64,000 nt of DNA. Origin: Allacma fusca (taxonomy: Eukaryota > Arthropoda > Collembola > Symphypleona > Sminthuridae). This document shows positions 1 to 64,000 of this stretch, piece after piece (position 1 is the stretch's first letter; the number at the start of each line of letters is the position of its first letter). The position numbers and the translations under genes are program-made. The DNA lies in NCBI GenBank assembly GCA_947179485.1, contig OX359250.1, forward strand, positions 8,041,873 to 8,105,872, written 5' to 3'. A model generated the notes under the pieces. That model had not been told where the DNA came from. It did not search any database and saw only the letters and a program-made list of their open reading frames with translations.

Positions 1-444
1 ATTTTGTAGTTAATTTTGTAGTTAATTTTGTAAGTAATTTTGTAGTTAATTTTGTAGTTAATTTTGTAGTTAATTTTGTAGTTAATTTTGTAGTTAATTT
101 TGTAGTTAATTTTGTAGTTAATTTTGTAGTTAATTTTGTAGTTAATTTTGTAGTTAATTTTGTAGTTAATTTTGTAGTTAATTTTGTAGTTAATTTTGTA
201 GTTAATTTTGTAGTTAATTTTGTAGTTAATTTTGTAGTTAATTTTGTAGTTAATTTTGTAGTTAATTTTGTAGTTAATTTTGTAGTTAATTTTGTAGTTA
301 ATTTTGTAGTTAATTTTGTAGTTAATTTTGTAGTTAATTTTGTAGTTAATTTTGTAGTTAATTTGTAAGTAATTTTGTAGTTAATTTTGTAGTTAATTTT
401 GTAGTTAATTTTGTAGTTAATTTTGTAGTTAATTTTGTAGTTAA

Positions 445-540
445 GCTTGCAGTTAAACTTGTAGTTAAGCGTGTAGTTAAGCTTGTTGTTAAGCTTGTAG
501 TTAAGCTAGTAGTTAAGCTTGTAGTTAAGCTTGTAGTTAA
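445..540 (+). repeat. 96-bp type I K cassette (reference copy)
   Basis: Eight monomers in fixed order: GCTTGCAGTTAA, ACTTGTAGTTAA, GCGTGTAGTTAA, GCTTGTTGTTAA, GCTTGTAGTTAA, GCTAGTAGTTAA, then two plain K monomers. The same ordered cassette starts at 2723, 3538, 4617, 5312 (one GTTAGGC variant), 5756, 6223 and 9675 (GTGG variant), and in the second 9.5-kb copy at 12213, 13076, 14143, 14838, 15282, 15749 and 19225. Fixed internal order means the whole cassette, not single monomers, has been copied. Most copies are followed by two T monomers, an 11-bp monomer and TTATGTAGTAAA, or else by TTTCGTAGTTAA. Confidence 0.9.
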
Positions 541-1271
541 TTTTGTAGTTAATTTTGTAGTAATTTTGTAGTTAATTATGTAGTAAATTTTGTAGTTAAT
601 TTTGTAGTTAATTTTGTAGTTAATTTTGTAGTTAATTTTGTAGGTAATTTTGTAGTTAATTTTGTAGTTAATTTTGTAGTTAATTTTGTAGTTAATTTTG
701 TAGTTAATTTTGTAGTTAATTTTGTAGTTAATTTTGTAGTTAATTTTGTAGTTAATTTTGTAGTTAATTTTGTAGTTAATTTTGTAGTTAATTTTGTAGT
801 TAATTTTGTAGTTAATTTTGTAGTTAATTTTGTAGTTAATTTTGTAGTTAATTTTGTAGTTAATTTTGTAGTTAATTTTGTAGTTAATTTTGTAGTTAAT
901 TTTGTAGGTAATTTTGTAGTTAATTTTGTAGTTAATTTTGTAGTTAATTTTGTAGTTAATTTTGTAGTTAATTTTGTAGTTAATTTTGTAGTTAATTTTG
1001 TAGTTAATTTTGTAGTTAATTTTGTAAGTAATTTTGTAGTTAATTTTGTAGTTAATTTTGTACTTAATTTTGTAGTTAATTTTGTAGTTAATTTTGTAGT
1101 TAATTTTGTAGTTAATTTTGTAGTTAATTTTGTAGTTAATTTTGTAGTTAATTTTGTAGTTAATTTTGTAGTTAATTTTGTAGTTAATTTTGTAGTTAAT
1201 TTTGTAGTTAATTTTGTAGTTAATTTTGTAGTTAATTTTGTAGTTAATTTTGTAGTTAATTTTGTAGTTAA

Positions 1272-1319
1272 GCTTGTAGTTAAGCTAGTAGTTAAGCTTG
1301 TAGTTAAGCTTGTAGTTAA
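1272..1319 (+). repeat. 5'-truncated K cassette (4 monomers)
   Basis: Keeps only the last four monomers of the 96-bp cassette (K, GCTAG variant, K, K), with the same downstream T-T-11mer-TTATG signature. The header and the GTTG monomer are missing and T monomers abut directly, as expected if a deletion or unequal exchange broke the cassette at a monomer boundary. Confidence 0.85.
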
Positions 1320-4300
1320 TTTTGTAGTTAATTTTGTAGTAATTTTGTAGTTAATTATGTAGTAAATTTTGTAGTTAATTTTGTAGTTAATTTTGTAGTT
1401 AATTTTGTAGTTAATTTTGTAGGTAATTTTGTAGTTAATTTTGTAGTTAATTTTGTAGTTAATTTTGTAGTTAATTTTGTAGTTAATTTTGTAGTTAATT
1501 TTGTAGTTAATTTTGTAGTTAATTTTGTAGTTAATTTTGTAGTTAATTTTGTAGTTAATTTTGTAGTTAATTTTGTAGGTAATTTTGTAGTTAATTTTGT
1601 AGTTAATTTTGTAGTTAATTTTGTAGTTAATTTTGTAGTTAATTTTGTAGTTAATTTTGTAGTTAATTTTGTAGTTAATTTTGTAGTTAATTTTGTAGTT
1701 AATTTTGTAGTTAATTTTGTAGTTAATTTTGTAGTTAATTTTGTAGTTAATTTTGTAGTTAATTTTGTAGTTAATTTTGTAGTTAATTTTGTAGTTAATT
1801 TTGTAGTTAATTTTGTAGTTAATTTTGTAGTTAATTTTGTAGTTAATTTTGTAGTTAATTTTGTAGTTAATTTTGTAGTTAATTTTGTAGTTAATTTTGT
1901 AGTTAATTTTGTAGTTAATTTTGTAGTTAATTTTGTAGTTAATTTTGTAGTTAATTTTGTAGTTAATTTTGTAGTTAATTTTGTAGTTAATTTTGTAGTT
2001 AATTTTGTAGTTAATTTTGTAGTTAATTTTGTAGTTAATTTTGTAGTTAAGCTTGCAGTTAAGCGTGTAGTTAAGCTTGTTGTTAAGCTTGTTGTTAAGC
2101 TTGTAGTTAAGCTTGTAGTTAATTTCGTAGTTAATTTTGTAGTTAATTTTGTAGTTAATTTTGTAGTTAATTTTGTAGTTAATTTTGTAGTTAATTTTGT
2201 AGTTAATTTTGTAGTTAATTTTGTAGTTAATTTTGTAGTTAATTTTGTAGTCAATTTTGTAGTTAATTTTGTAGTCAATTTTGTAGTTAATTTTGTAGTT
2301 AATTTTGTAGTTAATTTTGTAGTTAATTTTGTAGTTAATTTTGTAGTTAATTTTGTAGTTAATTTTGTAGTTAATTTTGTAGTTAATTTTGTAGTTAATT
2401 TTGTAGTTAATTTTGTAGTTAATTTTGTAGTTAATTTTGTAGTTAATTTTGTAGTTAATTTTGTAGTTAATTTTGTAGTTAATTTTGTAGTTAATTTTGT
2501 AGTTAATTTTGTAGTTAATTTTGTAGTTAATTTTGTAGTTAATTTTGTAGTTAATTTTGTAGTTAATTTTGTAGTTAATTTTGTAGTTAATTTTGTAGTC
2601 AATTTTGTAGTTAATTTTGTAGTTAATTTTGTAGTTAATTTTGTAGTTAATTTTGTAAGTAATTTTGTAGTTAATTTTGTAGTTAATTTTGTAGTTAATT
2701 TTGTAGTTAATTTTGTAGTTAAGCTTGCAGTTAAACTTGTAGTTAAGCGTGTAGTTAAGCTTGTTGTTAAGCTTGTAGTTAAGCTAGTAGTTAAGCTTGT
2801 AGTTAAGCTTGTAGTTAATTTTGTAGTTAATTTTGTAGTAATTTTGTAGTTAATTATGTAGTAAATTTTGTAGTTAATTTTGTAGTTAATTTTGTAGTTA
2901 ATTTTGTAGTTAATTTTGTAGGTAATTTTGTAGTTAATTTTGTAGTTAATTTTGTAGTTAATTTTGTAGTTAATTTTGTAGTTAATTTTGTAGTTAATTT
3001 TGTAGTTAATTTTGTAGGTAATTTTGTAGTTAATTTTGTAGTTAATTTTGTAGTTAATTTTGTAGTTAATTTTGTAGTTAATTTTGTAGTTAATTTTGTA
3101 GTTAATTTTGTAGTTAATTTTGTAGTTAATTTTGTAGTTAATTTTGTAGTTAATTTTGTAGTTAATTTTGTAGTTAATTTTGTAGTTAATTTTGTAGTTA
3201 ATTTTGTAGTTAATTTTGTAGTTAATTTTGTAGTTAATTTTGTAGTTAATTTTGTAGTTAATTTTGTAGTTAATTTTGTAGTTAATTTTGTAGTTAATTT
3301 TGTAGTTAATTTTGTAGTTAATTTTGTAGTTAATTTTGTAGTTAATTTTGTAGTTAATTTTGTAGTTAATTTTGTAGTTAATTTTGTAGTTAATTTTGTA
3401 GTTAATTTTGTAGTTAATTTTGTAGTTAATTTTGTAGTTAATTTTGTAGTTAATTTTGTAAGTAATTTTGTAGTTAATTTTGTAGTTAATTTTGTAGTTA
3501 ATTTTGTAGTTAATTTTGTAGTTAATTTTGTAGTTAAGCTTGCAGTTAAACTTGTAGTTAAGCGTGTAGTTAAGCTTGTTGTTAAGCTTGTAGTTAAGCT
3601 AGTAGTTAAGCTTGTAGTTAAGCTTGTAGTTAATTTTGTAGTTAATTTTGTAGTAATTTTGTAGTTAATTATGTAGTAAATTTTGTAGTTAATTTTGTAG
3701 TTAATTTTGTAGTTAATTTTGTAGTTAATTTTGTAGGTAATTTTGTAGTTAATTTTGTAGTTAATTTTGTAGTTAATTTTGTAGTTAATTTTGTAGTTAA
3801 TTTTGTAGTTAATTTTGTAGTTAATTTTGTAGTTAATTTTGTAGTTAATTTTGTAGTTAATTTTGTAGTTAATTTTGTAGTTAATTTTGTAGTTAATTTT
3901 GTAGTTAATTTTGTAGTTAATTTTGTAGTTAATTTTGTAGTTAATTTTGTAGTTAATTTTGTAGTTAATTTTGTAGTTAATTTTGTAGTTAATTTTGTAG
4001 TTAATTTTGTAGTTAATTTTGTAGGTAATTTTGTAGTTAATTTTGTAGTTAATTTTGTAGTTAATTTTGTAGTTAATTTTGTAGTTAATTTTGTAGTTAA
4101 TTTTGTAGTTAATTTTGTAGTTAATTTTGTAGTTAATTTTGTAGTTAATTTTGTAGTTAATTTTGTAGTTAATTTTGTAGTTAATTTTGTAGTTAATTTT
4201 GTAGTTAATTTTGTAGTTAATTTTGTAGTTAATTTTGTAGTTAATTTTTTAAGTAATTTTGTAGTTAATTTTGTAGTTAATTTTGTAGTTAATTTTGTAG

Positions 4301-6438
4301 TTAATTTTGTAGTTAATTTTGTAGTTAATTTTGTAGTTAATTTTGTAGTTAATTTTGTAGTTAATTTTGTAGTTAATTTTGTAGTTAATTTTGTAGTTAA
4401 TTTTGTAGTTAATTTTGTAGTTAATTTTGTAGTTAATTTTGTAGTTAATTTTGTAGTTAATTTTGTAGTTAATTTTGTAGTTAATTTTGTAGTTAATTTT
4501 GTAGTTAATTTTGTAGTTAATTTTGTAGTTAATTTTGTAAGCAATTTTGTAGTTAATTTTGTAGTTAATTTTGTAGTTAATTTTGTAGTTAATTTTGTAG
4601 TTAATTTTGTAGTTAAGCTTGCAGTTAAACTTGTAGTTAAGCGTGTAGTTAAGCTTGTTGTTAAGCTTGTAGTTAAGCTAGTAGTTAAGCTTGTAGTTAA
4701 GCTTGTAGTTAATTTTGTAGTTAATTTTGTAGTAATTTTGTAGTTAATTATGTAGTAAATTTTGTATGTAATTTTGTAGTTAATTTTGTAGTTAATTTTG
4801 TAGTTAATTTTGTAGTTAATTTTGTAGTTAATTTTGTAGTTAATTTTGTAGTTAATTTTGTAGTTAATTTTGTAGTTAATTTTGTAGTTAATTTTGTAGT
4901 TAATTTTGTAGTTAATTTTGTAGTTAATTTTGTAGTTAATTTTGTAGTTAATTTTGTAGTTAATTTTGTAGTTAATTTTGTAGTTAATTTTGTAGTTAAT
5001 TTTGTAGTTAATTTTGTAGTTAATTTTGTAGTTAATTTTGTAGTTAATTTTGTAGTTAATTTTGTAGTTAATTTTGTAGTTAATTTTGTAGTTAATTTTG
5101 TAGTTAATTTTGTAGTTAATTTTGTAGTTAATTTTGTAGTTAATTTTGTAGTTAATTTTGTAGTTAATTTTGTAGTTAATTTTGTAGTTAATTTTGTAGT
5201 TAATTTTGTAGTTAATTTTGTAGTTAATTTTTTAAGTAATTTTGTAGTTAATTTTGTAGTTAATTGTGTAGTTAATTTTGTAGTTAATTTTGTAGTTAAT
5301 TTTGTAGTTAAGCTTGCAGTTAAACTTGTAGTTAAGCGTGTAGTTAAGCTTGTTGTTAGGCTTGTAGTTAAGCTAGTAGTTAAGCTTGTAGTTAAGCTTG
5401 TAGTTAATTTCGTAGTTAATTTTGTAGTTAATTTTGTAGTTAATTTTGTAGTAAATTTTGTAGTTAATTTTGTAGTTAATTTTGTAGTTAATTTTGTAGT
5501 TAATTTTGTAGTTAATTTTGTAGTTAAGCTTGCAGTTAAACTTGTAGTTAAGCGTGTAGTTAAGCTTGTAGTTAAGCTTGTAGTTAAGCTTGTAGTTAAG
5601 CTTGTAGTTAAGCTTGTAGTTAAGCTTGTAGTTAATTTTGTAGTTAATTTTGTAGTTAATTTTGTAGTTAAATTTGTAGTTAATTTTGTAGTTAATTTTG
5701 TAGTTAATTTTGTAGTTAATTTTGTAGTTAATTTTGTAGTTAATTTTGTAGTTAAGCTTGCAGTTAAACTTGTAGTTAAGCGTGTAGTTAAGCTTGTTGT
5801 TAAGCTTGTAGTTAAGCTAGTAGTTAAGCTTGTAGTTAAGCTTGTAGTTAATTTTGTAGTTAATTTTGTAGTAATTTTGTAGTTAATTATGTAGTAAATT
5901 TTGTATGTAATTTTGTAGTTAATTTTGTAGTTAATTTTGTAGTTAATTTTGTAGTTAATTTTGTAGTTAATTTTGTAGTTAATTTTGTAGTTAATTTTGT
6001 AGTTAATTTTGTAGTTAATTTTGTAGTTAATTTTGTAGTTAATTTTGTAGTTAATTTTGTAGTTAATTTTGTAGTTAATTTTGTAGTTAATTTTGTAGTT
6101 AATTTTGTAGTTAATTTTGTAGTTAATTTTGTAGTTAATTTTGTAGTTAATTTTGTAGTTAATTTTGTAGTTAATTTTGTAGTTAATTTTGTAGTTAATT
6201 TTGTAGTTAATTTTGTAGTTAAGCTTGCAGTTAAACTTGTAGTTAAGCGTGTAGTTAAGCTTGTTGTTAAGCTTGTAGTTAAGCTAGTAGTTAAGCTTGT
6301 AGTTAAGCTTGTAGTTAATTTCGTAGTTAATTTTGTAGTTATATTTGTAGTTAATTTTGTAGTTAATTTTGTAGTTAATTTTGTAGTTAATTTTGTAGTT
6401 AATTTTGTAGTTAATTTTGTAGTTAATTTTGTAGTTAA

Positions 6439-6798
6439 GCTTGCAGTTAAACTTGTAGTTAAGCGTGTAGTTAAGCTTGTAGTTAAGCTTGTAGTTAAGC
6501 GTGTAGTTAAGCTTGTAGTTAAGCTTGTAGTTAAGCTTGTAGTTAAGCTTGTAGTTAAGCTTGTAGTTAAGCTTGTAGTTAAGCTTGTAGTTAAGCTTGT
6601 AGTTAAGCTTGTAGTTAAGCTTGTAGTTAAGCTTGTAGTTAAGCTTGTAGTTAAGCTTGTAGTTAAGCTTGTAGTTAAGCTTGTAGTTAAGCTTGTAGTT
6701 AAGCTTGTAGTTAAGCTTGTAGTTAAGCTTGTAGTTAAGCTTGTAGTTAAGCTTGTAGTTAAGCTTGTAGTTAAGCTTGTAGTTAAGCTTGTAGTTAA
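6439..6798 (+). repeat. 30-monomer K block, copy 1
   Basis: Begins with the type I header, has a second GCGTG monomer three monomers later, then a long run of plain GCTTGTAGTTAA to 6798. It is followed by a T monomer, then a unique TACTGTAGTTAA and, further on, an AAGTTTG variant, which together identify the same site in the second 9.5-kb copy. Every monomer contributes an AAGCTT palindrome at 12-bp spacing. Confidence 0.9.
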
Positions 6799-7798
6799 TT
6801 TTGTAGTTAATACTGTAGTTAATTTTGTAGTTAATTTTGTAGTTAATTTTGTAGTTAAGTTTGTAGTTAATTTTGTAGTTAATTTTGTAGTTAATTTTGT
6901 AGTTAATTTTGTAGTTAATTTTGTAGTTAATTTTGTAGTTAATTTTGTAGTTAATTTTGTAGTTAATTTTGTAGTTAATTTTGTAGGTTATTTTGTAGTT
7001 AATTTTGTAGTTAATTTTGTAGTTAATTTTGTAGTTAATTTTGTAGTTAATTTTGTAGTTAATTTTGTAGTTAATTTTGTAGTTAATTTTGTAGTTAATT
7101 TTGTAGTTAATTTTGTAGTTAATTTTGTAGTTAATTTTGTAAGTAATTTTGTAGTTAATTTTGTAGTTAATTTTGTAGTTAATTTTGTAGTTAATTTTGT
7201 AGTTAATTTTGTAGTTAAGCTTGCAGTTAAACTTGTAGTTAAGCGTGTAGTTAAGCTTGTTGTTAAGCTTGTAGTTAAGCTTGTAGTTAAGCTTGTAGTT
7301 AAGCTTGTAGTTAATTTCGTAGTTAATTTTGTAGTTAATTTTGTAGTTAATTTTGTAGTTAATTTTGTAGTTAATTTTGTAGTTAATTTTGTAAGTAATT
7401 TTGTAGTTAATTTTGTAGTTAATTTTGTAGTTAATTTTGTAGTTAATTTTGTAGTTAATTTTGTAGTTAAGCTTGCAGTTAAACTTGTAGTTAAGCGTGT
7501 AGTTAAGCTTGTTGTTAAGCTTGTAGTTAAGCTTGTAGTTAAGCTTGTAGTTAAGCTTGTAGTTAATTTCGTAGTTAATTTTGTAGTTAATTTTGTAGTT
7601 AATTTTGGAGTTAATTTTGTAGTTAATTTTGTAGTTAATTTTGTAGTTAATTTTGTAGTTAATTTTGTAGTTAATTTTGTAGTTAATTTTGTAGTTAATT
7701 TTGTAGTTAATTTTGTAGTTAATTTTGTAGTTAATTTTGTAGTTAATTTTGTAGTTAATTTTGTAGTTAATTTTGTAGTTAATTTTGTAGTCAATTTT

Positions 7799-9665
7799 GT
7801 AGTTAATTTTGTAGTTAATTTTGTAGTTAATTTTGTAGTTAATTTTGTAGTTAATTTTGTAGTTAATTTTGTAGTTAATTTTGTAGTTAATTTTGTAGTT
7901 AATTTTGTAGTTAATTTTGTAGTTAATTTTGTAGTTAATTTTGTAGTTAATTTTGTAGTTAATTTTGTAGTTAATTTTGTAGTTAATTTTGTAGTTAATT
8001 TTGTAGTTAATTTTGTAGTTAATTTTGTAGTTAATTTTGTAGTTAATTTTGTAGTAATTTTGTAGTTAATTTTGTAGTTAATTTTGTAGTTAATTTTGTA
8101 GTTAATTTTGTAGTTAATTTTGTAGTTAATTTTGTAGTTAATTTTGTAGTTAATTTTGTAGTTAATTTTGTAGTTAATTTTGTAGTTAATTTTGTAGTTA
8201 ATTTTGTAGTTAATTTTGTAGTTAATTTTGTAGTTAATTTTGTAGTTAATTTTGTAGTTAATTTTGTAGTTAATTTTGTAGTTAATTTTGTAGTTAATTT
8301 TGTAGTTAATTTTGTAGTTAATTTTGTAGTTAATTTTGTAGTTAATTTTGTAGTTAATTTTGTAGTTAATTTTGTAGTAATTTTGTAGTTAATTATGTAG
8401 TAAATTTTGTAGTTAATTTTGTAGTTAATTTTGTAGTTAATTTTGTAGTTAATTTTTTAGTTAATTTTGTAGTTAATTTTGTAGTTAATTTTGTAGTTAA
8501 TTTTTTAGTTAATTTTGTAGTTAATTTTGTAGTTTATTTTGTAGTTAATTTTGTAGTTAATTTTGTAGTTAATTTTGTAGTTAATTTTGTAGTTAATTTT
8601 GTAGGTAATTTTGTAGTTAATTTTGTAGTTAATTTTGTAGTTAATTTTGTAGTTAATTTTGTAGTTAATTTTGTAGTTAATTTTGTAGTTAATTTTGTAG
8701 TTAATTTTGTAGTTAATTTTGTAGTTAATTTTGTAGTTAATTTTGTAGTTAATTTTGTAAGTAATTTTGTAGTTAATTTTGTAGTTAATTTTGTAGTTAA
8801 TTTTGTAGTTAATTTTGTAGTTAATTTTGTAGTAATTTTGTAGTTAATTTTGTAGTTAATTTTGTAGTTAATTTTGTAGTAATTTTGTAGTTAATTATGT
8901 AGTAAATTTTGTAGTTAATTTTGTAGTTAATTTTGTAGTTAATTTTGTAGTTAATTTTGTAGGTAATTTTGTAGTTAATTTTGTATTTAATTTTGTAGTT
9001 AATTTTGTAGTTAATTTTGTAGTTAATTTTGTAGTTAATTTTGTAGTTAATTTTGTAGTTAATTTTGTAGTTAATTTTGTAGTTAATTTTGTAGTTAATT
9101 TTGTAGTTAATTTTGTAGTTAATTTTGTAGTTAATTTTGTAGTTAATTTTGTAGTTAATTTTGTAGTTAATTTTGTAGTTAATTTTGTAGTTAATTTTGT
9201 AGTTAATTTTGTAGTTAATTTTGTAGTTAATTTTGTAGTTAATTTTGTAGTTAATTTTGTAGTTAATTTTGTAGTTAATTTTGTAGTTAATTTTGTAGTT
9301 AATTTTGTAGTTAATTTTGTAGTTAATTTTGTAGTTAATTTTGTAGTTAATTTTGTAGTTAATTTTGTAGTTAATTTTGTAGTTAATTTTGTAGTTAATT
9401 TTGTAGTTAATTTTGTAAGTAATTTTGTAGTTAATTTTGTAGTTAATTTTGTAGTTAATTTTGTAGTTAATTTTGTAGTTAATTTTGTAAGTAATTTTGT
9501 AGTTAATTTTGTAGTTAATTTTGTAGTTAATTTTGTAGTTAATTTTGTAGTTAATTTTGTAGTTAATTTTGTAGTTAGTTTTGTAGTTAATTTTGTAGTT
9601 AATTTTGTAAGTAATTTTGTAGTTAATTTTGTAGTTAATTTTGTAGTTAATTTTGTAGTTAATTT
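7799..9665 (+). repeat. Long T-monomer block without K cassettes
   Basis: About 1.9 kb of nearly pure TTTTGTAGTTAA with scattered single-base variants (GTAGGTAA, GTAAGTAA, TTTTTTAG, GTATTTAA) and 11-bp TTTTGTAGTAA monomers near 8050, 8376, 8830 and 8877. This is the lowest-GC and least structured stretch of the 9.5-kb unit; its counterpart is about 17325-19215. No gene or other feature seen. Confidence 0.85.
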
Positions 9666-9950
9666 TGTAGTTAAGCTTGCAGTTAAACTTGTAGTTAAGC
9701 GTGTAGTTAAGCTTGTTGTTAAGCTTGTGGTTAAGCTAGTAGTTAAGCTTGTAGTTAAGCTTGTAGTTAATTTCGTAGTTAATTTTGTAGTTAATTTTGT
9801 AGTTAATTTTGTAGTTAATTTTGTAGTTAATTTTGTAGTTAATTTTGTAGTTAATTTTGTAGTTAATTTTGTAGTTAATTTTGTAGTTAATTTTGTAGTT
9901 AATTTTGTAGTTAATTTTGTAGTTAATTTTGTAGTTAATTTTGTAGTTAA

Positions 9951-10130
9951 GCTTGCAGTTAAACTTGTAGTTAAGCGTGTAGTTAAGCTTGTTGTTAAGC
10001 TTGCAGTTAAACTTGTAGTTAAGCGTGTAGTTAAGCTTGCAGTTAAACTTGTAGTTAAGCGTGTAGTTAAGCTTGTTGTTAAGCTTGTGGTTAAGCTAGT
10101 AGTTAAGCTTGTAGTTAAGCTTGTAGTTAA
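9951..10130 (+). repeat. K block with header repeated three times, copy 1
   Basis: Fifteen monomers in which the GCTTGC/ACTTG/GCGTG header recurs at 9951, 9999 and 10035 before a single normal cassette ending (GTTG, GTGG, GCTAG, K, K). The nested header spacing (48 then 36 bp) is what repeated out-of-register exchange within a cassette would leave. The same structure is at 19501-19680. Confidence 0.9.
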
Positions 10131-15964: not shown

Positions 15965-16324
15965 GCTTGCAGTTAAACTTGTAGTTAAGCGTGTAGTTAA
16001 GCTTGTAGTTAAGCTTGTAGTTAAGCGTGTAGTTAAGCTTGTAGTTAAGCTTGTAGTTAAGCTTGTAGTTAAGCTTGTAGTTAAGCTTGTAGTTAAGCTT
16101 GTAGTTAAGCTTGTAGTTAAGCTTGTAGTTAAGCTTGTAGTTAAGCTTGTAGTTAAGCTTGTAGTTAAGCTTGTAGTTAAGCTTGTAGTTAAGCTTGTAG
16201 TTAAGCTTGTAGTTAAGCTTGTAGTTAAGCTTGTAGTTAAGCTTGTAGTTAAGCTTGTAGTTAAGCTTGTAGTTAAGCTTGTAGTTAAGCTTGTAGTTAA
16301 GCTTGTAGTTAAGCTTGTAGTTAA
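15965..16324 (+). repeat. 30-monomer K block, copy 2
   Basis: Exact-position counterpart (+9526) of the block at 6439-6798, also 360 bp and with the same downstream TACTG monomer. No change in monomer number since duplication, unlike several other points of the 9.5-kb unit. Confidence 0.9.
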
Positions 16325-19300: not shown

Positions 19301-19500
19301 GTAGTTAAGCTTGTAGTTAATTTCGTAGTTAATTTTGTAGTTAATTTTGTAGTTAATTTTGTAGTTAATTTTGTAGTTAATTTTGTAGTTAATTTTGTAG
19401 TTAATTTTGTAGTTAATTTTGTAGTTAATTTTGTAGTTAATTTTGTAGTTAATTTTGTAGTTAATTTTGTAGTTAATTTTGTAGTTAATTTTGTAGTTAA

Positions 19501-19680
19501 GCTTGCAGTTAAACTTGTAGTTAAGCGTGTAGTTAAGCTTGTTGTTAAGCTTGCAGTTAAACTTGTAGTTAAGCGTGTAGTTAAGCTTGCAGTTAAACTT
19601 GTAGTTAAGCGTGTAGTTAAGCTTGTTGTTAAGCTTGTGGTTAAGCTAGTAGTTAAGCTTGTAGTTAAGCTTGTAGTTAA
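19501..19680 (+). repeat. K block with header repeated three times, copy 2
   Basis: Counterpart at +9550 of the block at 9951-10130 with identical monomer order. It shows that the nested-header rearrangement predates the 9.5-kb duplication. Confidence 0.9.
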
Positions 19681-21500: not shown

Positions 21501-21700
21501 NNNNNNNNNNNNNNNNNNNNNNNNNNNNNNNNNNNNNNNNNNNNNNNNNNNNNNNNNNNNNNNNNNNNNNNNNNNNNNNNNNNNNNNNNNNNNNNNNNNN
21601 NNNNNNNNNNNNNNNNNNNNNNNNNNNNNNNNNNNNNNNNNNNNNNNNNNNNNNNNNNNNNNNNNNNNNNNNNNNNNNNNNNNNNNNNNNNNNNNNNNNN
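21501..21700. other. Assembly gap of 200 N
   Basis: Exactly 200 undetermined bases. A round number like this is a conventional scaffolding placeholder rather than a measured length, so the true missing length is unknown. Satellite in the same orientation lies on both sides (T monomers on the left, K monomers on the right). The K-block header type changes across the gap, so the two flanks need not be close neighbours in the real chromosome. Confidence 0.98.
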
Positions 21701-21707
21701 TAGTTAA

Positions 21708-51770: not shown

Positions 51771-54700
51771 TAGTTAAGCTTGTACTTAAGCTTGTACTTA
51801 AGCTTGTACTTAAGCTTGTAGTTAAGATTGTAGTTAAGCTTGTAGTTAAGCTTGTAGTTAAGCTTGTAGTTAAGCTTGTAGTTAAGCTAGTAGTTAAGCT
51901 TGTAGTTAAGCTTGTAGTTAAGCTTGTAGTTAAGCTTGTAGTTAAGCTTGTAGTTAAGCTTGTAGTTAATTTTGTAGTTAATTTTGTAGTTAATTTTGTA
52001 GTTAATTTTGTAGTTAATTTTGTAGTTAATTTTGTAGTTAATTTTGTAGTTAATTTTGTAGTTATTTTTGTAGTTAATTTTGTAGTTAATTTTGTAGTTA
52101 ATTTTGTAGTTAATTTTGTATTTAATTTTGTAGTTCATTTTGAATTAATTTTGTAGTTAATTTTGTATTTAATTTTGTAGTTAATTTTGTAGTTAATTTT
52201 GTAGTTAATTTTGTAGTTAATTTTGTAGTTAATTTTGTAGTTAGTTTTGTAGTTAATTTTGGAGTTAATTTTGTAGTAAATTTTGTAGTTAATTTTGTAT
52301 TTGATTTTGTAGTTCATTTTGTAGTTAATTTTGTAGTTAATTGTGTAGTTAATTTTGTAGTTAATTTTGTATTTAATTTTGTAGTTCATTTTGTAGTTAA
52401 TTTTGTAGTTCATTTTGTAGTTCATTTTGTAGTTCATTTTGTAGTTCATTTTGTAGTTAATTTTGTAGTTAATTTTGTAGTTAATTTTGTAGTTAAGCTT
52501 GCAGTTAAACTTGTAGTTAAGCGTGTAGTTAAGCTTGCAGTTAAGCTTGTAGTTAAGCTTGTAGTTAAGCTTGTAGTTAAGCTTGTAGTTAAGCTTGTAG
52601 TTAAGCTTGTAGTTAAGCTTGTAGTTAAGCTTGTAGTTAAGCTTGTAGTTAAGCTTGTAGTTAAGCTTGTAGTTAGGGTTGTAGTTAAGCTTGTAGTTAA
52701 ACTTGTAGTTAAGATTGTGGTTAATTTTGTACTTAATTTTGTAGTTAATTTTGTAGTTAATTTTGTAGTTAATTTTGTAGTTAATTTTGTAGTTAATTTT
52801 GTAGTTAATTTTGTAGTTAATTTTGTAGTTAATTTTGTAGTTAATTTTGTAGTTAATTTTGTAGTTAATTTTGTAGTTAATTTTGTAGTTAATTTTGTAG
52901 TTAATTTTGTAGTTAATTTTGTAGTTAATTTTGTAGTTAATTTTGTAGTTAATTTTGTAGTTAATTTTGTAGTTAATTTTGTAGTTAATTTTGTACTTAA
53001 TTTTGTAGTTAATTTTGTAGTTAATTTTGTAGTTAATTTTGTAGTTAATTTTGTAGTTAATTTTGTAGTTAATTTTGTAGTTAATTTTGTAGTTAATTTT
53101 GTAGTTAATTTTGTAGTTAATTTTGTATTTAATTTTGTAGTTAATTTTGTATTTAATTTTGTAGTTAATTTTGTAGTTAATTTTGTAGTTAATTTTGTAG
53201 TTAATTTTGTAGTTACGCTTGTAGTTAATTTTGTAGTTAATTTTGTAGTTAATTTTGTAGTTAATTTTGTAGTTAATTTTGTAGTTAATTTTGTAGTTAA
53301 TTTTGTAGTTAATTTTGTAGTTAATTTTGTAGTTAATTTTGTAGTTAATTTTGTAGTTAATTTTGTAGTTAATTTTGTAGTTAATTTTGTAGTTAATTTT
53401 GTAGTAATTTTGTAGTTAATTTTGTTGTTAATTTTGTAGTTAAGCTTGTAGTTAAGCGTGTAGTTAAGCTTGTAGTTAAGCTTGTAGTTAAGCTTGTAGT
53501 TAAGCTTGTAGTTAGGGTTGTAGTTAAGCTTGTAGTTAAACTTGTAGTTAAGATTGTGGTTAATTTTGTACTTAATTTTGTAGTTAATTTTGTAGTTAAT
53601 TTTGTAGTTAATTTTGTAGTTAATTTTGTAGTTAATTTTGTATTTAATTTTGTAGTTAATTTTGTAGTTAATTTTGTAGTTAATTTTGTAGTTAATTTTG
53701 TAGTTAATTTTGTAGTTACGCTTGTAGTTAATTTTGTAGTTAATTTTGTAGTTAATTTTGTAGTTAATTTTGTAGTTAATTTTGTAGTTAATTTTGTAGT
53801 TAATTTTGTAGTTAATTTTGTAGTTAATTTTGTAGTTAATTTTGTAGTTAATTTTGTAGTTAATTTTGTAGTTAATTTTGTAGTTAATTTTGTAGTTAAT
53901 TTTGTAGTTAATTTTGTAGTTAATTTTGTAGTTAATTTTGTAGTTAATTTTGTAGTTAATTTTGTAGTTAATTTTGTAGTTAATTTTGTAGTTAATTCTG
54001 TAGTTAATTTTGTATTTAATTTTGTAGTTAATTTGTAGTTAATTTTGTAGGTAATTTTGTAGTTAATTTTGTATTTGATTTTGTAGTTCATTTTGTAGTT
54101 CATTTTGTAGTTAATTTTGTAGTTAATTTTGTAGTTAATTTTGTAGTTAAGCTTGCAGTTAAACTTGTAGTTAAGCGTGTAGTTAAGCTTGTAGTTAAGC
54201 TTGTAGTTAAGCTTGTAGTTAAGCTCTTAGTTAAGCTTGTAGTTAAGCTTGTAGTTAAGCTTGTAGTTAGGGTTGTAGTTAAGCTTGTAGTTAAACTTGT
54301 AGTTAAGATTGTAGTTAATTTTGTACTTAATTTTGTAGTTAATTTTGTAGTTAATTTTGTAGCTAATTTTGTAGTTAATTTTGTAGTTAATTTTGTAGTT
54401 AATTTTGTAGTTAATTTTGTAGTTAATTTTGTAGTTAATTTTGTAGTTAATTTTGTTGTTAATTTTGTAGTTAATTTTGTAGTTAATTTTGTAGTTAATT
54501 TTGTAGTTAATTTTGTAGTTAATTTTGTCGTTAATTTTGTAGTTAATTTTGTAGTTAATTTTGTAGTTAATTTTGTAGTTAATTTTGTAGTTAATTTTGT
54601 AGTTAATTTTGTAGTTAATTTTGTAGTTAATTTTGTAGTTAATTTTGTAGTTAATTTTTTAGTTAATTTTGTAGTTAATTTTGTAGTTAATTTTGTAGTT

Positions 54701-56205
54701 AATTTTGTAGTTAATTTTGTAGTTAATTTTGTAGTTAATTTTGTAGTTAATTTTGTAGTTAATTTTGTAGTTAATTTTGTAGTTAATTTTGTAGTTAATT
54801 TTGTAGTTAATTTTGTAGTTAATTTTGTATTTAATTTTGTAGTTAATTTTGTAGTTAATTTTGTAGTTAATTTTGTAGTTAAGCTTGTAGTTAAGCTTGT
54901 AGTTAAGCTTGTAGTTAAGCTTGTAGTTAAGCTTGTAGTTAGGGTTGTAGTTAAGCTTGTAGTTAAACTTGTAGTTAAGATTGTGGTTAATTTTGTACTT
55001 AATTTTGTAGTTAATTTTGTAGTTAATTTTGTAGTTAATTTTGTAGTTAATTTTGTAGTTAATTTTGTAGTTAATTTTGTAGTTAATTTTGTAGTTAATT
55101 TTGTAGTTAATTTTGTAGTTAATTCTGTAGTTAATTTTGTATTTAATTTTGTAGTTAATTTTGTCGTTAATTTTGTAGTTAATTTTGTAGTTAATTTTGT
55201 AGTTAATTTTGTAGATAATTTTGTAGTTAAGCTTGCAGTTAAACTTGTAGTTAAGCGTGTAGTTAAGCTTGTAGTTAAGCTTGTAGTTAAGCTTGTAGTT
55301 AAGCGTGTAGTTAAGCTTGTAGTTAAGCTTGCAGTTAAACTTGTAGTTAAGCGTGTAGTTAAGCTTGTAGTTAAGCTTGTAGTTAAGCTTGTAGTTAGGG
55401 TTGTAGTTAAGCTTGTAGTTAAACTTGTAGTTAAGATTGTAGTTAATTTTGTACTTAATTTTGTAGTTAATTTTGTAGTTAATTTTGTAGCTAATTTTGT
55501 AGTTAATTTTGTAGTTAATTTTGTAGTTAATTTTGTAGTTAATTTTGTAGTTAATTTTGTAGTTAATTTTGTAGTTAATTTTGTAGTTAATTTTGTCGTT
55601 AATTTTGTAGTTAATTTTGTAGTTAATTTTGTAGTTAATTTTGTAGTTAATTTTGTAGTTAATTTTGTAGTTAATTTTGTAGTTAAGCTTGCAGTTAAAC
55701 TTGTAGTTAAGCGTGTAGTTAAGCTTGTAGTTAAGCTTGTAGTTAAGCTTGTAGTTAAGCGTGTAGTTAAGCTTGTAGTTAAGCTTGTAGTTAAGCTTGT
55801 AGTTAAGCTTGTAGTTAAGCTTGTAGTTAAGCTTGTAGTTAAGCTTGTAGTTAAGCTTGTAGTTAAGCTTGTAGTTAAGCTTGTAGTTAAGCTTGTAGTT
55901 AATTTCGTAGTTAATTTTGTAGTTAATTTTGTAGTTAATTTTGTAGTTAATTTTGTAGTTAATTTTGTAGTTAATTTTGTAGTTAATTCTGTAGTTAATT
56001 TTGTATTTAATTTTGTAGTTAATTTGTAGTTAATTTTGTAGGTAATTTTGTAGTTAATTTTGTATTTGATTTTGTAGTTCATTTTGTAGTTAATTTTGTA
56101 GTTAATTTTGTAGTTAATTTTGTAGTTAATTTTGTAGTTAATTTTGTAGTTAAGCTTGCAGTTAAACTTGTAGTTAAGCGTGTAGTTAAGCTTGTAGTTA
56201 AGCTT
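51771..56205 (+). repeat. 4.4-kb higher-order repeat, copy 1
   Basis: Matches 56206-60461. Landmarks: triple GTACTT K monomers from about 51783 (+4436), GAATTAATT near 52141 (+4436), 19-monomer type I K block at 52497-52724 (+4436), GTTACGCTTG near 53215 (+4424), GTATTTGATT at 54071 (+4424), a GCTCTTAG monomer near 54225 (+4424), and GTATTTGATT at 56062 (+4400). K blocks here use the type I header and the AGGGTTG/ACTTG/GATTG trailer together. Confidence 0.88.
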
Positions 56206-59200
56206 GTAGTTAAGCTTGTACTTAAGCTTGTACTTAAGCTTGTACTTAAGCTTGTAGTTAAGATTGTAGTTAAGCTTGTAGTTAAGCTTGTAGTTAAGCT
56301 TGTAGTTAAGCTTGTAGTTAAGCTAGTAGTTAAGCTTGTAGTTAAGCTTGTAGTTAAGCTTGTAGTTAAGCTTGTAGTTAAGCTTGTAGTTAAGCTTGTA
56401 GTTAATTTTGTAGTTAATTTTGTAGTTAATTTTGTAGTTAATTTTGTAGTTAATTTTGTAGTTAATTTTGTAGTTAATTTTGTAGTTAATTTTGTAGTTA
56501 TTTTTGTAGTTAATTTTGTAGTTAATTTTGTAGTTAATTTTGTAGTTAATTTTGTATTTAATTTTGTAGTTCATTTTGAATTAATTTTGTAGTTAATTTT
56601 GTATTTAATTTTGTAGTTAATTTTGTAGTTAATTTTGTAGTTAATTTTGTAGTTAATTTTGTAGTTAATTTTGTAGTTAGTTTTGTAGTTAATTTTGGAG
56701 TTAATTTTGTAGTAAATTTTGTAGTTAATTTTGTATTTGATTTTGTAGTTCATTTTGTAGTTAATTTTGTAGTTAATTGTGTAGTTAATTTTGTAGTTAA
56801 TTTTGTATTTAATTTTGTAGTTCATTTTGTAGTTAATTTTGTAGTTCATTTTGTAGTTCATTTTGTAGTTCATTTTGTAGTTCATTTTGTAGTTAATTTT
56901 GTAGTTAATTTTGTAGTTAATTTTGTAGTTAAGCTTGCAGTTAAACTTGTAGTTAAGCGTGTAGTTAAGCTTGCAGTTAAGCTTGTAGTTAAGCTTGTAG
57001 TTAAGCTTGTAGTTAAGCTTGTAGTTAAGCTTGTAGTTAAGCTTGTAGTTAAGCTTGTAGTTAAGCTTGTAGTTAAGCTTGTAGTTAAGCTTGTAGTTAA
57101 GCTTGTAGTTAGGGTTGTAGTTAAGCTTGTAGTTAAACTTGTAGTTAAGATTGTGGTTAATTTTGTACTTAATTTTGTAGTTAATTTTGTAGTTAATTTT
57201 GTAGTTAATTTTGTAGTTAATTTTGTAGTTAATTTTGTAGTTAATTTTGTAGTTAATTTTGTAGTTAATTTTGTAGTTAATTTTGTAGTTAATTTTGTAG
57301 TTAATTTTGTAGTTAATTTTGTAGTTAATTTTGTAGTTAATTTTGTAGTTAATTTTGTAGTTAATTTTGTAGTTAATTTTGTAGTTAATTTTGTAGTTAA
57401 TTTTGTAGTTAATTTTGTAGTTAATTTTGTACTTAATTTTGTAGTTAATTTTGTAGTTAATTTTGTAGTTAATTTTGTAGTTAATTTTGTAGTTAATTTT
57501 GTAGTTAATTTTGTAGTTAATTTTGTAGTTAATTTTGTAGTTAATTTTGTAGTTAATTTTGTATTTAATTTTGTAGTTAATTTTGTATTTAATTTTGTAG
57601 TTAATTTTGTAGTTAATTTTGTAGTTAATTTTGTAGTTAATTTTGTAGTTACGCTTGTAGTTAATTTTGTAGTTAATTTTGTAGTTAATTTTGTAGTTAA
57701 TTTTGTAGTTAATTTTGTAGTTAATTTTGTAGTTAATTTTGTAGTTAATTTTGTAGTTAATTTTGTAGTTAATTTTGTAGTTAATTTTGTAGTTAATTTT
57801 GTAGTTAATTTTGTAGTTAATTTTGTAGTAATTTTGTAGTTAATTTTGTTGTTAATTTTGTAGTTAAGCTTGTAGTTAAGCGTGTAGTTAAGCTTGTAGT
57901 TAAGCTTGTAGTTAAGCTTGTAGTTAAGCTTGTAGTTAGGGTTGTAGTTAAGCTTGTAGTTAAACTTGTAGTTAAGATTGTGGTTAATTTTGTACTTAAT
58001 TTTGTAGTTAATTTTGTAGTTAATTTTGTAGTTAATTTTGTAGTTAATTTTGTAGTTAATTTTGTATTTAATTTTGTAGTTAATTTTGTAGTTAATTTTG
58101 TAGTTAATTTTGTAGTTAATTTTGTAGTTAATTTTGTAGTTACGCTTGTAGTTAATTTTGTAGTTAATTTTGTAGTTAATTTTGTAGTTAATTTTGTAGT
58201 TAATTTTGTAGTTAATTTTGTAGTTAATTTTGTAGTTAATTTTGTAGTTAATTTTGTAGTTAATTTTGTAGTTAATTTTGTAGTTAATTTTGTAGTTAAT
58301 TTTGTAGTTAATTTTGTAGTTAATTTTGTAGTTAATTTTGTAGTTAATTTTGTAGTTAATTTTGTAGTTAATTTTGTAGTTAATTTTGTAGTTAATTTTG
58401 TAGTTAATTTTGTAGTTAATTCTGTAGTTAATTTTGTATTTAATTTTGTAGTTAATTTGTAGTTAATTTTGTAGGTAATTTTGTAGTTAATTTTGTATTT
58501 GATTTTGTAGTTCATTTTGTAGTTCATTTTGTAGTTAATTTTGTAGTTAATTTTGTAGTTAATTTTGTAGTTAAGCTTGCAGTTAAACTTGTAGTTAAGC
58601 GTGTAGTTAAGCTTGTAGTTAAGCTTGTAGTTAAGCTTGTAGTTAAGCTCTTAGTTAAGCTTGTAGTTAAGCTTGTAGTTAAGCTTGTAGTTAGGGTTGT
58701 AGTTAAGCTTGTAGTTAAACTTGTAGTTAAGATTGTAGTTAATTTTGTACTTAATTTTGTAGTTAATTTTGTAGTTAATTTTGTAGCTAATTTTGTAGTT
58801 AATTTTGTAGTTAATTTTGTAGTTAATTTTGTAGTTAATTTTGTAGTTAATTTTGTAGTTAATTTTGTAGTTAATTTTGTTGTTAATTTTGTAGTTAATT
58901 TTGTAGTTAATTTTGTAGTTAATTTTGTAGTTAATTTTGTAGTTAATTTTGTCGTTAATTTTGTAGTTAATTTTGTAGTTAATTTTGTAGTTAATTTTGT
59001 AGTTAATTTTGTAGTTAATTTTGTAGTTAATTTTGTAGTTAATTTTGTAGTTAATTTTGTAGTTAATTTTGTAGTTAATTTTTTAGTTAATTTTGTAGTT
59101 AATTTTGTAGTTAATTTTGTAGTTAATTTTGTAGTTAATTTTGTAGTTAATTTTGTAGTTAATTTTGTAGTTAATTTTGTAGTTAATTTTGTAGTTAATT

Positions 59201-60461
59201 TTGTAGTTAATTTTGTAGTTAATTTTGTAGTTAATTTTGTAGTTAATTTTGTATTTAATTTTGTAGTTAATTTTGTAGTTAATTTTGTAGTTAATTTTGT
59301 AGTTAAGCTTGTAGTTAAGCTTGTAGTTAAGCTTGTAGTTAAGCTTGTAGTTAAGCTTGTAGTTAGGGTTGTAGTTAAGCTTGTAGTTAAACTTGTAGTT
59401 AAGATTGTGGTTAATTTTGTACTTAATTTTGTAGTTAATTTTGTAGTTAATTTTGTAGTTAATTTTGTAGTTAATTTTGTAGTTAATTTTGTAGTTAATT
59501 TTGTAGTTAATTTTGTAGTTAATTTTGTAGTTAATTCTGTAGTTAATTTTGTATTTAATTTTGTAGTTAATTTTGTCGTTAATTTTGTAGTTAATTTTGT
59601 AGTTAATTTTGTAGTTAATTTTGTAGATAATTTTGTAGTTAAGCTTGCAGTTAAACTTGTAGTTAAGCGTGTAGTTAAGCTTGTAGTTAAGCTTGTAGTT
59701 AAGCTTGTAGTTAAGCGTGTAGTTAAGCTTGTAGTTAAGCTTGCAGTTAAACTTGTAGTTAAGCGTGTAGTTAAGCTTGTAGTTAAGCTTGTAGTTAAGC
59801 TTGTAGTTAGGGTTGTAGTTAAGCTTGTAGTTAAACTTGTAGTTAAGATTGTAGTTAATTTTGTACTTAATTTTGTAGTTAATTTTGTAGTTAATTTTGT
59901 AGCTAATTTTGTAGTTAATTTTGTAGTTAATTTTGTAGTTAATTTTGTAGTTAATTTTGTAGTTAATTTTGTAGTTAATTTTGTAGTTAATTTTGTAGTT
60001 AATTTTGTCGTTAATTTTGTAGTTAATTTTGTAGTTAATTTTGTAGTTAATTTTGTAGTTAATTTTGTAGTTAATTTTGTAGTTAAGCTTGCAGTTAAAC
60101 TTGTAGTTAAGCGTGTAGTTAAGCTTGTAGTTAAGCTTGTAGTTAAGCTTGTAGTTAAGCGTGTAGTTAAGCTTGTAGTTAAGCTTGTAGTTAAGCTTGT
60201 AGTTAAGCTTGTAGTTAAGCTTGTAGTTAAGCTTGTAGTTAAGCTTGTAGTTAAGCTTGTAGTTAAGCTTGTAGTTAAGCTTGTAGTTAAGCTTGTAGTT
60301 AATTTCGTAGTTAATTTTGTAGTTAATTTTGTAGTTAATTTTGTAGTTAATTTTGTAGTTAATTTTGTAGTTAATTTTGTAGTTAATTCTGTAGTTAATT
60401 TTGTATTTAATTTTGTAGTTAATTTGTAGTTAATTTTGTAGGTAATTTTGTAGTTAATTTT
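56206..60461 (+). repeat. 4.4-kb higher-order repeat, copy 2
   Basis: Adjacent second copy with every landmark in order. It lost 12 bp between 57153 and 57839 and a further 24 bp between 59407 and 60429 relative to copy 1, again whole monomers. The left junction falls inside a K block near 56200, where a type I header runs directly into the GTACTT monomers; the corresponding K block in the left copy begins with a type II header at about 51694. This places the recombination point within a K block. Confidence 0.88.
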
Positions 60462-61732
60462 GTATTTGATTTTGTAGTTCATTTTGTAGTTAATTTTGTA
60501 GTTAATTTTGTAGTTAATTTTGTAGTTAATTTTGTAGTTAATTTTGTAGTTAAGCTTGCAGTTAAACTTGTAGTTAAGCGTGTAGTTAAGCTTGTAGTTA
60601 AGCTTGTAGTTAAGCTTGTAGTTAAGCTTGTAGTTAAGCTTGTAGTTAAGCTTGTAGTTAAGCTTGTAGTTAAGCTTGTAGTTAAGCTTGTAGTTAAGCT
60701 TGTAGTTAGGATTGTAGTTAAGCTTGTAGTTAAACTTGTAGTTAAGATTGTAGTTAATTTTGTACTTAATTTTGTAGTTAATTTTGTAGTTAATTTTGTA
60801 GCTAATTTTGTAGTTAATTTTGTAGTTAATTTTGTAGTTAATTTTGTAGTTAATTTTGTAGTTAATTTTGTAGTTAATTTTGTAGTTAATTTTGTAGTTA
60901 ATTTTGTCGTTAATTTTGTAGTTAATTTTGTAGTTAATTTTGTAGTTAATTTTGTAGTTAATTTTGTAGTTAAGCTTGCAGTTAAACTTGTAGTTAAGCG
61001 TGTAGTTAAGCTTGTAGTTAAGCTTGTAGTTAAGCTTGTAGTTAAGCGTGTAGTTAAGCTTGTAGTTAAGCTTGTAGTTAAGCTTGTAGTTAAGCTTGTA
61101 GTTAAGCTTGTAGTTAAGCTTGTAGTTAAGCTTGTAGTTAAGCTTGTAGTTAAGCTTGTAGTTAAGCTTGTAGTTAATTTTGTAGTTAATTTTGTAGTTA
61201 ATTTTGTAGTTAATTTTGTAGTTAATTTTGTAGTTAATTTTGTAGTTAATTTTGTAGTTAAGCTTGCAGTTAAACTTGTAGTTAAGCGTGTAGTTAAGCT
61301 TGTAGTTAAGCTTGTAGTTAAGCTTGTAGTTAAGCTTGTAGTTAAGCTTGTAGTTAAGCTTGTAGTTAAGCTTGTAGTTAAGCTTGTAGTTAAGCTTGTA
61401 GTTAAGCTTGTAGTTAAGCTTGTAGTTAAGCTTGTAGTTAAGCTTGTAGTTAAGCTTGTAGTTAAGCTTGTAGTTAAGCTTGTAGTTAAGCTTGTAGTTA
61501 AGCTTGTAGTTAAGCTTGTAGTTAAGCTTGTAGTTAAGCTTGTAGTTAAGCTTGTAGTTAAGCTTGTAGTTAATTTCGTAGTTAATTTTGTAGTTAATTT
61601 CGTAGTTAATTTTGTAGTTAATTTTGTAGTTAATTTTGTAGTTAATTTTGTAGTTAATTCTGTAGTTAATTTTGTATTTAATTTTGTAGTTAATTTGTAG
61701 TTAATTTTGTAGGTAATTTTGTAGTTAATTTT
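60462..61732 (+). repeat. 1271-bp K-rich unit
   Basis: Bounded by GTATTTGATT-GTTCATT markers at 60462 and 61733. It contains three K blocks with type I headers (60554, about 60974, 61262). The first ends in AGGATTG rather than the AGGGTTG used up to 60 kb. The third has 23 plain K monomers in a row (61298-61573) before TTTCGTAG. It ends with the TTAATTTG 11-mer and GTAGGTAA signature also seen before 56062 and 60462. Confidence 0.85.
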
Positions 61733-63639
61733 GTATTTGATTTTGTAGTTCATTTTGTAGTTAATTTTGTAGTTAATTTTGTAGTTAATTTTGTAGTTAA
61801 TTTTGTAGTTAATTTTGTAGTTAAGCTTGCAGTTAAACTTGTAGTTAAGCGTGTAGTTAAGCTTGTAGTTAAGCTTGTAGTTAAGCTTGTAGTTAAGCTT
61901 GTAGTTAAGCTTGTAGTTAAGCTTGTAGTTAAGCTTGTAGTTAAGCTTGTAGTTAAGCTTGTAGTTAGGATTGTAGTTAAGCTTGTAGTTAAACTTGTAG
62001 TTAAGATTGTAGTTAATTTTGTACTTAATTTTGTAGTTAATTTTGTAGTTAATTTTGTAGCTAATTTTGTAGTTAATTTTGTAGTTAATTTTGTAGTTAA
62101 TTTTGTAGTTAATTTTGTAGTTAATTTTGTAGTTAATTTTGTAGTTAATTTTGTCGTTAATTTTGTAGTTAATTTTGTAGTTAATTTTGTAGTTAATTTT
62201 GTAGATAATTTTGTAGTTAAGCTTGCAGTTAAACTTGTAGTTAAGCGTGTAGTTAAGCTTGTAGTTAAGCTTGTAGTTAAGCTTGTAGTTAAGCGTGTAG
62301 TTAAGCTTGTAGTTAAGCTTGTAGTTAAGCTTGTAGTTAAGCTTGTAGTTAAGCTTGTAGTTAAGCTTGTAGTTAAGCTTGTAGTTAAGCTTGTAGTTAA
62401 GCTTGTAGTTAAGCTTGTAGTTAATTTTGTAGTTAATTTTGTAGTTAATTTTGTAGTTAATTTTGTAGTTAATTTTGTAGTTAATTTTGTAGTTAATTTT
62501 GTAGTTAAGCTTGCAGTTAAACTTGTAGTTAAGCGTGTAGTTAAGCTTGTAGTTAAGCTTGTAGTTAAGCTTGTAGTTAAGCTTGTAGTTAAGCTTGTAG
62601 TTAAGCGTGTAGTTAAGCTTGTAGTTAAGCTTGTAGTTAAGCTTGTAGTTAAGCTTGTAGTTAAGCTTGTAGTTAAGCTTGTAGTTAAGCTTGTAGTTAA
62701 GCTTGTAGTTAAGCTTGTAGTTAAGCTTGTAGTTAAGCTTGTAGTTAAGCTTGTACTTAAGCTTGTAGTTAAGCTTGTAGGTAATTTCGTAGTTAAGCTT
62801 GTAGTTAAGCTTGTAGTTAAGCTTGTAGTTAAGCTTGTAGTTAATTTTGTAGTTAATTTTGTAGTTAATTTTGTAGTTAATTTTGTAGTTAATTTTGTCG
62901 TTAATTTTGTAGTTAATTTTGTAGTTAATTTTGTAGTTAATTTTGTAGTTAATTTTGTAGTTAATTTTGTAGTTAAGCTTGCAGTTAAACTTGTAGTTAA
63001 GCGTGTAGTTAAGCTTGTAGTTAAGCTTGTAGTTAAGCTTGTAGTTAAGCGTGTAGTTAAGCTTGTAGTTAAGCTTGTAGTTAAGCTTGTAGTTAAGCTT
63101 GTAGTTAAGCTTGTAGTTAAGCTTGTAGTTAAGCTTGTAGTTAAGCTTGTAGTTAAGCTTGTAGTTAAGCTTGTAGTTAATTTTGTAGTTAATTTTGTAG
63201 TTAATTTTGTAGTTAATTTTGTAGTTAAGCTTGCAGTTAAACTTGTAGTTAAGCGTGTAGTTAAGCTTGTAGTTAAGCTTGTAGTTAAGCTTGTAGTTAA
63301 GCTTGTAGTTAAGCTTGTAGTTAAGCTTGTAGTTAAGCTTGTAGTTAAGCTTGTAGTTAAGCTTGTAGTTAAGCTTGTAGTTAAGCTTGTAGTTAAGCTT
63401 GTAGTTAAGCTTGTAGTTAAGCTTGTAGTTAAGCTTGTAGTTAAGCTTGTAGTTAAGCTTGTAGTTAAGCTTGTAGTTAAGCTTGTAGTTAATTTCGTAG
63501 TTAATTTTGTAGTTAATTTTGTAGTTAATTTTGTAGTTAATTTTGTAGTTAATTTTGTAGTTAATTCTGTAGTTAATTTTGTATTTAATTTTGTAGTTAA
63601 TTTGTAGTTAATTTTGTAGGTAATTTTGTAGTTAATTTT
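61733..63639 (+). repeat. 1907-bp K-rich unit
   Basis: Same boundaries and the same first K block (header 61825, +1271; AGGATTG trailer) as the preceding unit, but 636 bp (53 monomers) longer. The extra length lies in additional type I K blocks around 62.5-63.2 kb, including a GTAGGTAATTTCG interruption of a K run near 62778. The last K block again runs into TTTCGTAG and the same boundary signature. Confidence 0.85.
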
Positions 63640-64000
63640 GTATTTGATTTTGTAGTTCATTTTGTAGTTAATTTTGTAGTTAATTTTGTAGTTAATTTTG
63701 TAGTTAATTTTGTAGTTAATTTTGTAGTTAAGCTTGCAGTTAAACTTGTAGTTAAGCGTGTAGTTAAGCTTGTAGTTAAGCTTGTAGTTAAGCTTGTAGT
63801 TAAGCTTGTAGTTAAGCTTGTAGTTAAGCTTGTAGTTAAGCTTGTAGTTAAGCTTGTAGTTAAGCTTGTAGTTAGGATTGTAGTTAAGCTTGTAGTTAAA
63901 CTTGTATTTAAGATTGTAGTTAATTTTGTACTTAATTTTGTAGTTAATTTTGTAGTTAATTTTGTAGCTAATTTTGTAGTTAATTTTGTAGTTAATTTTG
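63640..64000 (+). repeat. Start of a third K-rich unit, cut by the window end
   Basis: GTATTTGATT at 63640, type I header at 63732 (+1907), K run, AGGATTG and ACTTG followed by a private GTATTTAAG change near 63906, then T monomers with GTACTT and GTAGCTAA variants in the same order as in the two units before it. The array evidently continues beyond the window. Confidence 0.85.

Follow-up and report, generated by a model that had tools for sequence, protein, structure and literature searches.

The 64,000-nucleotide stretch analyzed here (the window) comes from the globular springtail Allacma fusca (contig OX359250.1, hereafter C9, positions 8,041,873 to 8,105,872), and all of it, from 1 to 64000 on the forward strand, is part of an array of about 123 kb (C9:7986063-8109165) of a 12-bp satellite made of the monomers TTTTGTAGTTAA and GCTTGTAGTTAA, on a contig that is very probably the sex chromosome X2. 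The array is layered by nested tandem duplications and carries two monomer cassettes whose exact matches are confined to it. We think it likely that the array is an ordinary noncoding satellite of (peri)centromeric type, lying in a heterochromatin-like pocket of X2 and layered by out-of-register exchange or slippage duplications.

An earlier note, made from the letters of the window alone, had described it as one 12-bp satellite array in a single orientation, free of interspersed unique DNA or transposons, and these claims held. Tandem Repeats Finder (TRF) returned one period-12 row spanning 1-64000 (5339.5 copies, 95% matches), and identity at a lag of 12 bp was 0.954 across the window. Wrap-around decomposition yielded 5,342 pieces, of which 5,259 are 12 bp long, 80 are 11 bp long, and 3 have other lengths; among them TTTTGTAGTTAA occurred 3,249 times and GCTTGTAGTTAA 1,035 times, the two together making up 80.5% of the 5,324 N-free pieces. 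The monomer core GTAGTTAA was found 4,635 times on the forward strand against no occurrence of TTAACTAC, and lag-12 identity never fell below 0.80 in any N-free 120-bp tile (step 60), so that transposon or unique inserts within the window were rejected. The canonical units hold two or four G/C positions each, and the satellite is A+T-rich. A telomeric repeat of TTAGG units was also considered and rejected, with no match to three units at up to one mismatch. The reduction of the full window to the two monomers and their variants needs one correction: a 200-N assembly gap at 21501-21700 had been missed, and because of it an unbroken array is not established.

Within this periodicity, the two monomers are carried in blocks. 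Pieces that start with TT or are 11 bp long form one kind of block and all other pieces a second; the two kinds alternate, 117 blocks of each, with median lengths of 20 and 10 units. In the second kind, 92 blocks hold four or more units: 44 opened with a cassette we call DBA (GCTTGCAGTTAA-ACTTGTAGTTAA-GCGTGTAGTTAA), 34 with GA (GCTTGTAGTGAA-GCGTGTAGTTAA), 3 with DAC, and 11 with other units. The cassettes divide the window into three domains, seen in a symbol map and in counts. In the left domain (1-21500, forward), GC-type blocks often begin with DBA amid long TT-type runs; it holds 29 exact DBA copies, the final one at 19585, and continues as far as the array's left end. In the middle domain (21701-51729, forward), GC-type blocks often begin with GA, and in the right domain (49753-64000, forward) DBA reappears, with 21 exact copies from 49753 to 63732 that overlap the final GA cassettes. 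The N gap separates the DBA and GA domains and hides their true junction, which lies between 19585 and 21840.

Both cassettes mark this array. The GA 36-mer has 35 exact matches in the genome, all in the window at 21840-51729, and DBA has 151, of which the best 100 all lie in this array, the remaining 51 comprising 46 in the window and 5 just beyond it; the confinement refers to exact matches in one assembly, and diverged copies may exist elsewhere. DBA matches run through the left half of the array, and together with the TRF row and the edge cores they define its extent. The edges were taken as the first and last monomer cores (C9:7986063 and 8109165, in sequence retrieved outside 7987501-8011000 and 8041001-8041872), which places the right end 3.3 kb beyond the window.

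Several stretches of the window are near-identical copies of their neighbors. The largest tandem duplication (2000-20971, forward) aligns copy 1 at 2000-11398 with copy 2 at 11516-20971, a unit of 9.5 kb, with 4 mismatches in 9,345 ungapped pairs (99.96%) and 10 gaps. A 4.2-kb duplication (29620-37996, forward) pairs 29620-33800 with 33780-37996 at 99.90% identity outside 2 gaps, and a 4.4-kb duplication (50919-60500, forward) pairs 50919-56100 with 55306-60500 at 98.8% outside 16 gaps. Shorter duplications with lags of 2,444 and 2,134 bp, also visible in the symbol map, occupy 43000-48700 on the same strand (99.7 and 99.5% outside gaps). Two out-of-register controls reached 96.6% identity, compared with 98.8 to 99.96% for the three large lagged copies; multi-monomer units thus resemble one another more closely when aligned in register. 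The longest exact repeat, under a rule admitting only nonoverlapping repeats with at least six variant monomers, spans 448 monomers (5,370 bp, starting at 4041 and 13567), and none of 30 shuffles (15 full and 15 class-preserving) contained any repeat satisfying the rule.

The nested higher-order structure proposed in the earlier note therefore stands as layering, but not as the strict regularity of alpha satellite. Among the pairs aligned, each large unit occurs two or three times at irregular spacing, and in the 30 kb to the left of the window like cassettes recur at irregular lags; across the window and these 30 kb, no single unit repeats many times in regular tandem. Because the copies are few and irregular, the structure is one of serial or nested tandem duplication and not a regular higher-order array.

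Could the assembler have created the duplicated blocks or the length of the array? The N gap between cassette domains keeps the concern partly alive, and the 9.5-kb copies, all but identical outside their gaps, are near the typical length of a long read. Several duplications are present, however, differing in size and identity, and the 4 mismatches and 10 gaps between the 9.5-kb copies exceed what the stated quality value (QV) of 58.7 would lead one to expect. The sequenced animal was a male in which X2 is described as single-copy in the A. fusca genome note (PMC10427803); if so, stacked haplotypes are not expected and false haplotype duplication is unlikely. We accordingly regard an assembly origin as quite improbable.

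The following history would account for the observed structure. A 12-bp unit would have been amplified; two monomer classes, TT-starting and GC-starting, would have arisen and been carried in alternating blocks; repeated out-of-register exchange or slippage would have duplicated segments as long as 9.5 kb; and these duplications would have left nested near-identical copies together with variant cassettes peculiar to this array. Such exchange or slippage is proposed as the common source of the layering, of the variants specific to the array, and of the irregularity of the lags. Gap lengths in multiples of 12 were found in 2 of 2 gaps for the 4.2-kb duplication, in 1 of 1 and 4 of 6 for the shorter copies, and in 3 of 4 for a further pair at 23-30 kb.

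The satellite reaches well beyond X2. A monomer search of the source assembly (392,743,791 bases in 91 contigs, including a 14,936-bp mitochondrial contig), which the earlier note had suggested, placed the family on at least five of the six chromosomes, namely, chr1, chr2, chr4, X1, and X2. We take contigs C1, C8, C10, C12, C5, and C9, with strong confidence, to be chr1, chr2, chr3, chr4, X1, and X2, respectively; the placement covers five of these six large scaffolds, chr3 (C10) not being placed among the matches listed. A 24-mer joining the TTTT and GCTT monomers had 188 matches, of which the best 100 comprised 5 on chr1, 67 on chr2 (at two loci about 13.6 Mb apart), and 28 on X2; among the other 88, 3 fell in the window and 3 in a chr4 sample (L060), with 82 not placed. 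Of the seven matches of a family 36-mer, chr1 has three and X2 two, and the other two lie at 58.69 Mb of chr4. A run of 16 consecutive copies of GCTTGTAGTTAA had 4,239 matches, which among the matches listed were 4 on chr1 and otherwise on X1 at 41.62 Mb. A satellite exclusive to X2 is consequently rejected for the family, which is seen on chr1, chr2, chr4, and X1, and retained for the two exact cassettes. Six samples of chr1 and chr2 arrays consisted of TTTTGTAGTTAA and GCTTGTAGTTAA to 42 to 57%, compared with 80.5% in the window, and lag-12 identity in the sampled family arrays of these chromosomes was 0.82 to 0.91, compared with 0.954. The family qualifies as satellite DNA, since its short unit is repeated head to tail over a long array and since it occurs at several places in the chromosomes, with variants particular to an array.

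Other 12-bp families occur in the same genome. A second array on X2 (C9:6476143-6613835), about 1.4 Mb from the first, has the unit ACTTGGAGTYTA, for which 50 of 50 matches lie on X2, the outermost 138 kb apart, with contiguity sampled at three places (L028, L039, and L040); at 6.65 Mb (L041) there is a further 12-periodic stretch, which is more diverged. A 48-mer of ACTTGGAATTAA had 7,777 matches genome-wide (7,747 reverse and 30 forward), most of them not placed; those among the matches listed were all on chr1 in a very homogeneous array from C1:18801694 onward (18.80 Mb), and a 490-bp tract of the same unit lies on chr2 at 58.508 Mb. A mixed ACTTGGAATTAA / ACTTGGAATTAT pattern had no match in the assembly. 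We scored kinship as the best match over rotations and strands, together with the number of 20,000 shuffles reaching that score, uncorrected for the choice of families. The TTTT and GCTT monomers match at 10 of 12 positions (79 shuffles). GCTTGTAGTTAA matches ACTTGGAATTAA at 9 of 12 (454 shuffles), ACTTGGAGTTTA at 9 (468), and ACTTGGAATTAT at 8 (3,081); the corresponding values for TTTTGTAGTTAA are 8 of 12 (4,331), 8 (4,177), and 7 (15,284). The sisters ACTTGGAATTAA, ACTTGGAGTTTA, and ACTTGGAATTAT score 10 (79), 11 (14), and 9 (555) among themselves. On these sequence similarities, the 12-bp families are likely, though not proven, to be akin.

Since it occurs on five or more of the six chromosomes and has sister 12-bp families, the family most likely packs heterochromatin of (peri)centromeric type. 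A stronger version, in which the array would be part of the active X2 centromere and the kinetochore would assemble on this 12-bp satellite or on its sister array, much as fly kinetochores lie among satellites of 5 to 12 bp, is plausible but less likely than not. The chromosomal spread would suit it, as would the greater homogeneity of this array compared with those sampled on chr1 and chr2 and the observation that fly centromeric satellites are mostly of 5 to 12 bp (PMC8122249, PMC7214746). Yet position alone is not diagnostic, given two arrays 1.4 Mb apart on X2 and two widely separated loci on chr2; the array measures only about 123 kb as assembled, and the matches listed place the family on five of the six large scaffolds, chr3 not among them. 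The available text of PMC10427803 and PMC9630974 gives no centromere position for A. fusca; in the main text of the latter, the words centromere and satellite have no occurrences. The window also contains no CENP-B box at up to one mismatch. That box is lacking in many animals.

Several results weigh against our preferred account of a heterochromatic satellite layered by exchange or slippage. The pair at 23-30 kb is only 97.3% identical, barely exceeding the out-of-register controls, and gap lengths are multiples of 12 in just 4 of 10 cases for the 9.5-kb duplication and 4 of 16 for the 4.4-kb duplication, although splitting of steps by the aligner may explain such gaps. The heterochromatin state is one that we infer. 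To the right of the array, at a distance of about 84 kb, an open reading frame (ORF) matches 7tm_1, and of ten samples taken between the two X2 arrays nine lack the 12-bp period, indicating that the satellite sits in mixed DNA.

Domain matches were obtained for seven of eight flanking ORFs. In line with our preferred account, four that lie no more than 20 kb from the array's left end have domains of reverse transcriptase, RNase H, or integrase. Another, about 15 kb to the right of the array, matches RNase_H; matches to a reverse-transcriptase zinc-binding domain on the right fell below the curated cut-off. A 188-amino-acid frame is present there in three copies (L026:1303-1866, L026:6186-6749, and L027:6744-7307), one on the opposite strand, and the copy that was searched gave a weak match to the reverse-transcriptase zinc-binding domain, below cut-off. 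At L024:8356-9345, a repeat with a period of about 81 bp keeps a repetitive frame of 330 amino acids open. Elsewhere in the assembly, near full-length copies of mitochondrial COX1 lie in large scaffolds (L009, L010, L011, and L013; two on chr4 and one each on X1 and chr2). Their sole in-frame stops are TGA, 11 to 13 in each, and they represent either recent insertions into the nuclear genome or mitochondrial sequence that was misplaced.

The biology of the host invites a more specific role. In A. fusca, male embryos eliminate a copy of X1 and a copy of X2 at an early stage (PMC10427803), and exact DBA and GA are restricted to this X2 array, so that the cassettes might be imagined as a cis signal for the elimination of X2 in male embryos. 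Such a role is speculative, because the family also lies on autosomes, which are retained, and because X1 is likewise eliminated and has neither exact cassette; array-specific variants are in any case expected in any satellite, and we find the proposal scarcely credible. A review mentions X elimination in springtails, in its available text without a satellite signal (PMC9292451). It would be far-fetched, too, to see in the 12-bp superfamily (TTTTGTAGTTAA, GCTTGTAGTTAA, ACTTGGAATTAA, and ACTTGGAGTYTA) the (peri)centromeric DNA of globular springtails at large, with a cassette "barcode" for each chromosome and an X2 barcode aiding recognition of X2 during X loss in male embryos. Whatever their role, the DBA and GA tags could serve as probes for fluorescence in situ hybridization or k-mer counting to follow the loss of X2 in male embryos.

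Springtail satellites seem little described. Centromeres of Folsomia candida have been called from clusters of tandem repeats, with no repeat unit given in the available text (PMC13194869). The family reported here, which the earlier note had not recognized, is apparently undescribed, no satellite report having been found for 12 monomer strings in the rotations searched, as judged by title. Like the dodeca satellite of Drosophila, it is an arthropod satellite with a unit of 12 or 11 bp, and fly satellites are often of 5 to 12 bp (PMC8122249, PMC7214746). Dodeca, however, has the G+C-rich unit CGGTCCCGTACT and lies at the chr3 centromere (PMC7214746), whereas the Allacma unit is A+T-rich and known from sequence only; membership in dodeca was rejected on the difference between these units. 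With the higher-order repeats of alpha satellite, it shares in-register units that are more alike and an array-specific order of variants, but alpha satellite has a 171-bp monomer in regular, chromosome-specific units, in contrast to the 12-bp monomer, irregular copies, and lack of a CENP-B box seen here. Another close parallel is human satellite III (HSat3, DYZ1): there, too, the monomer is very short, the arrays reach tens of kilobases or more, units are multikilobase in size, and subfamilies are chromosome-specific. The human unit is the 5-bp GAATG/CATTC and not 12 bp, and membership in human satellite II/III was rejected because the 12-bp unit is of other sequence, without the pentamer base; the Yq12 array, moreover, consists of a single 3.6-kb unit throughout, whereas the large units here are few and irregular. 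Since human GAATG arrays have units of 3.36, 3.6, and 5.63 kb (PMC2588610, PMC4022460), the building of multikilobase units from very short monomers, which the earlier note had called less familiar, is an architecture already known. To it, the springtail array adds a 12-bp family, its chromosomal spread, and two tags with exact matches in one X2 array, and it displays at base level how a very short unit gives rise to layering on the multikilobase scale.

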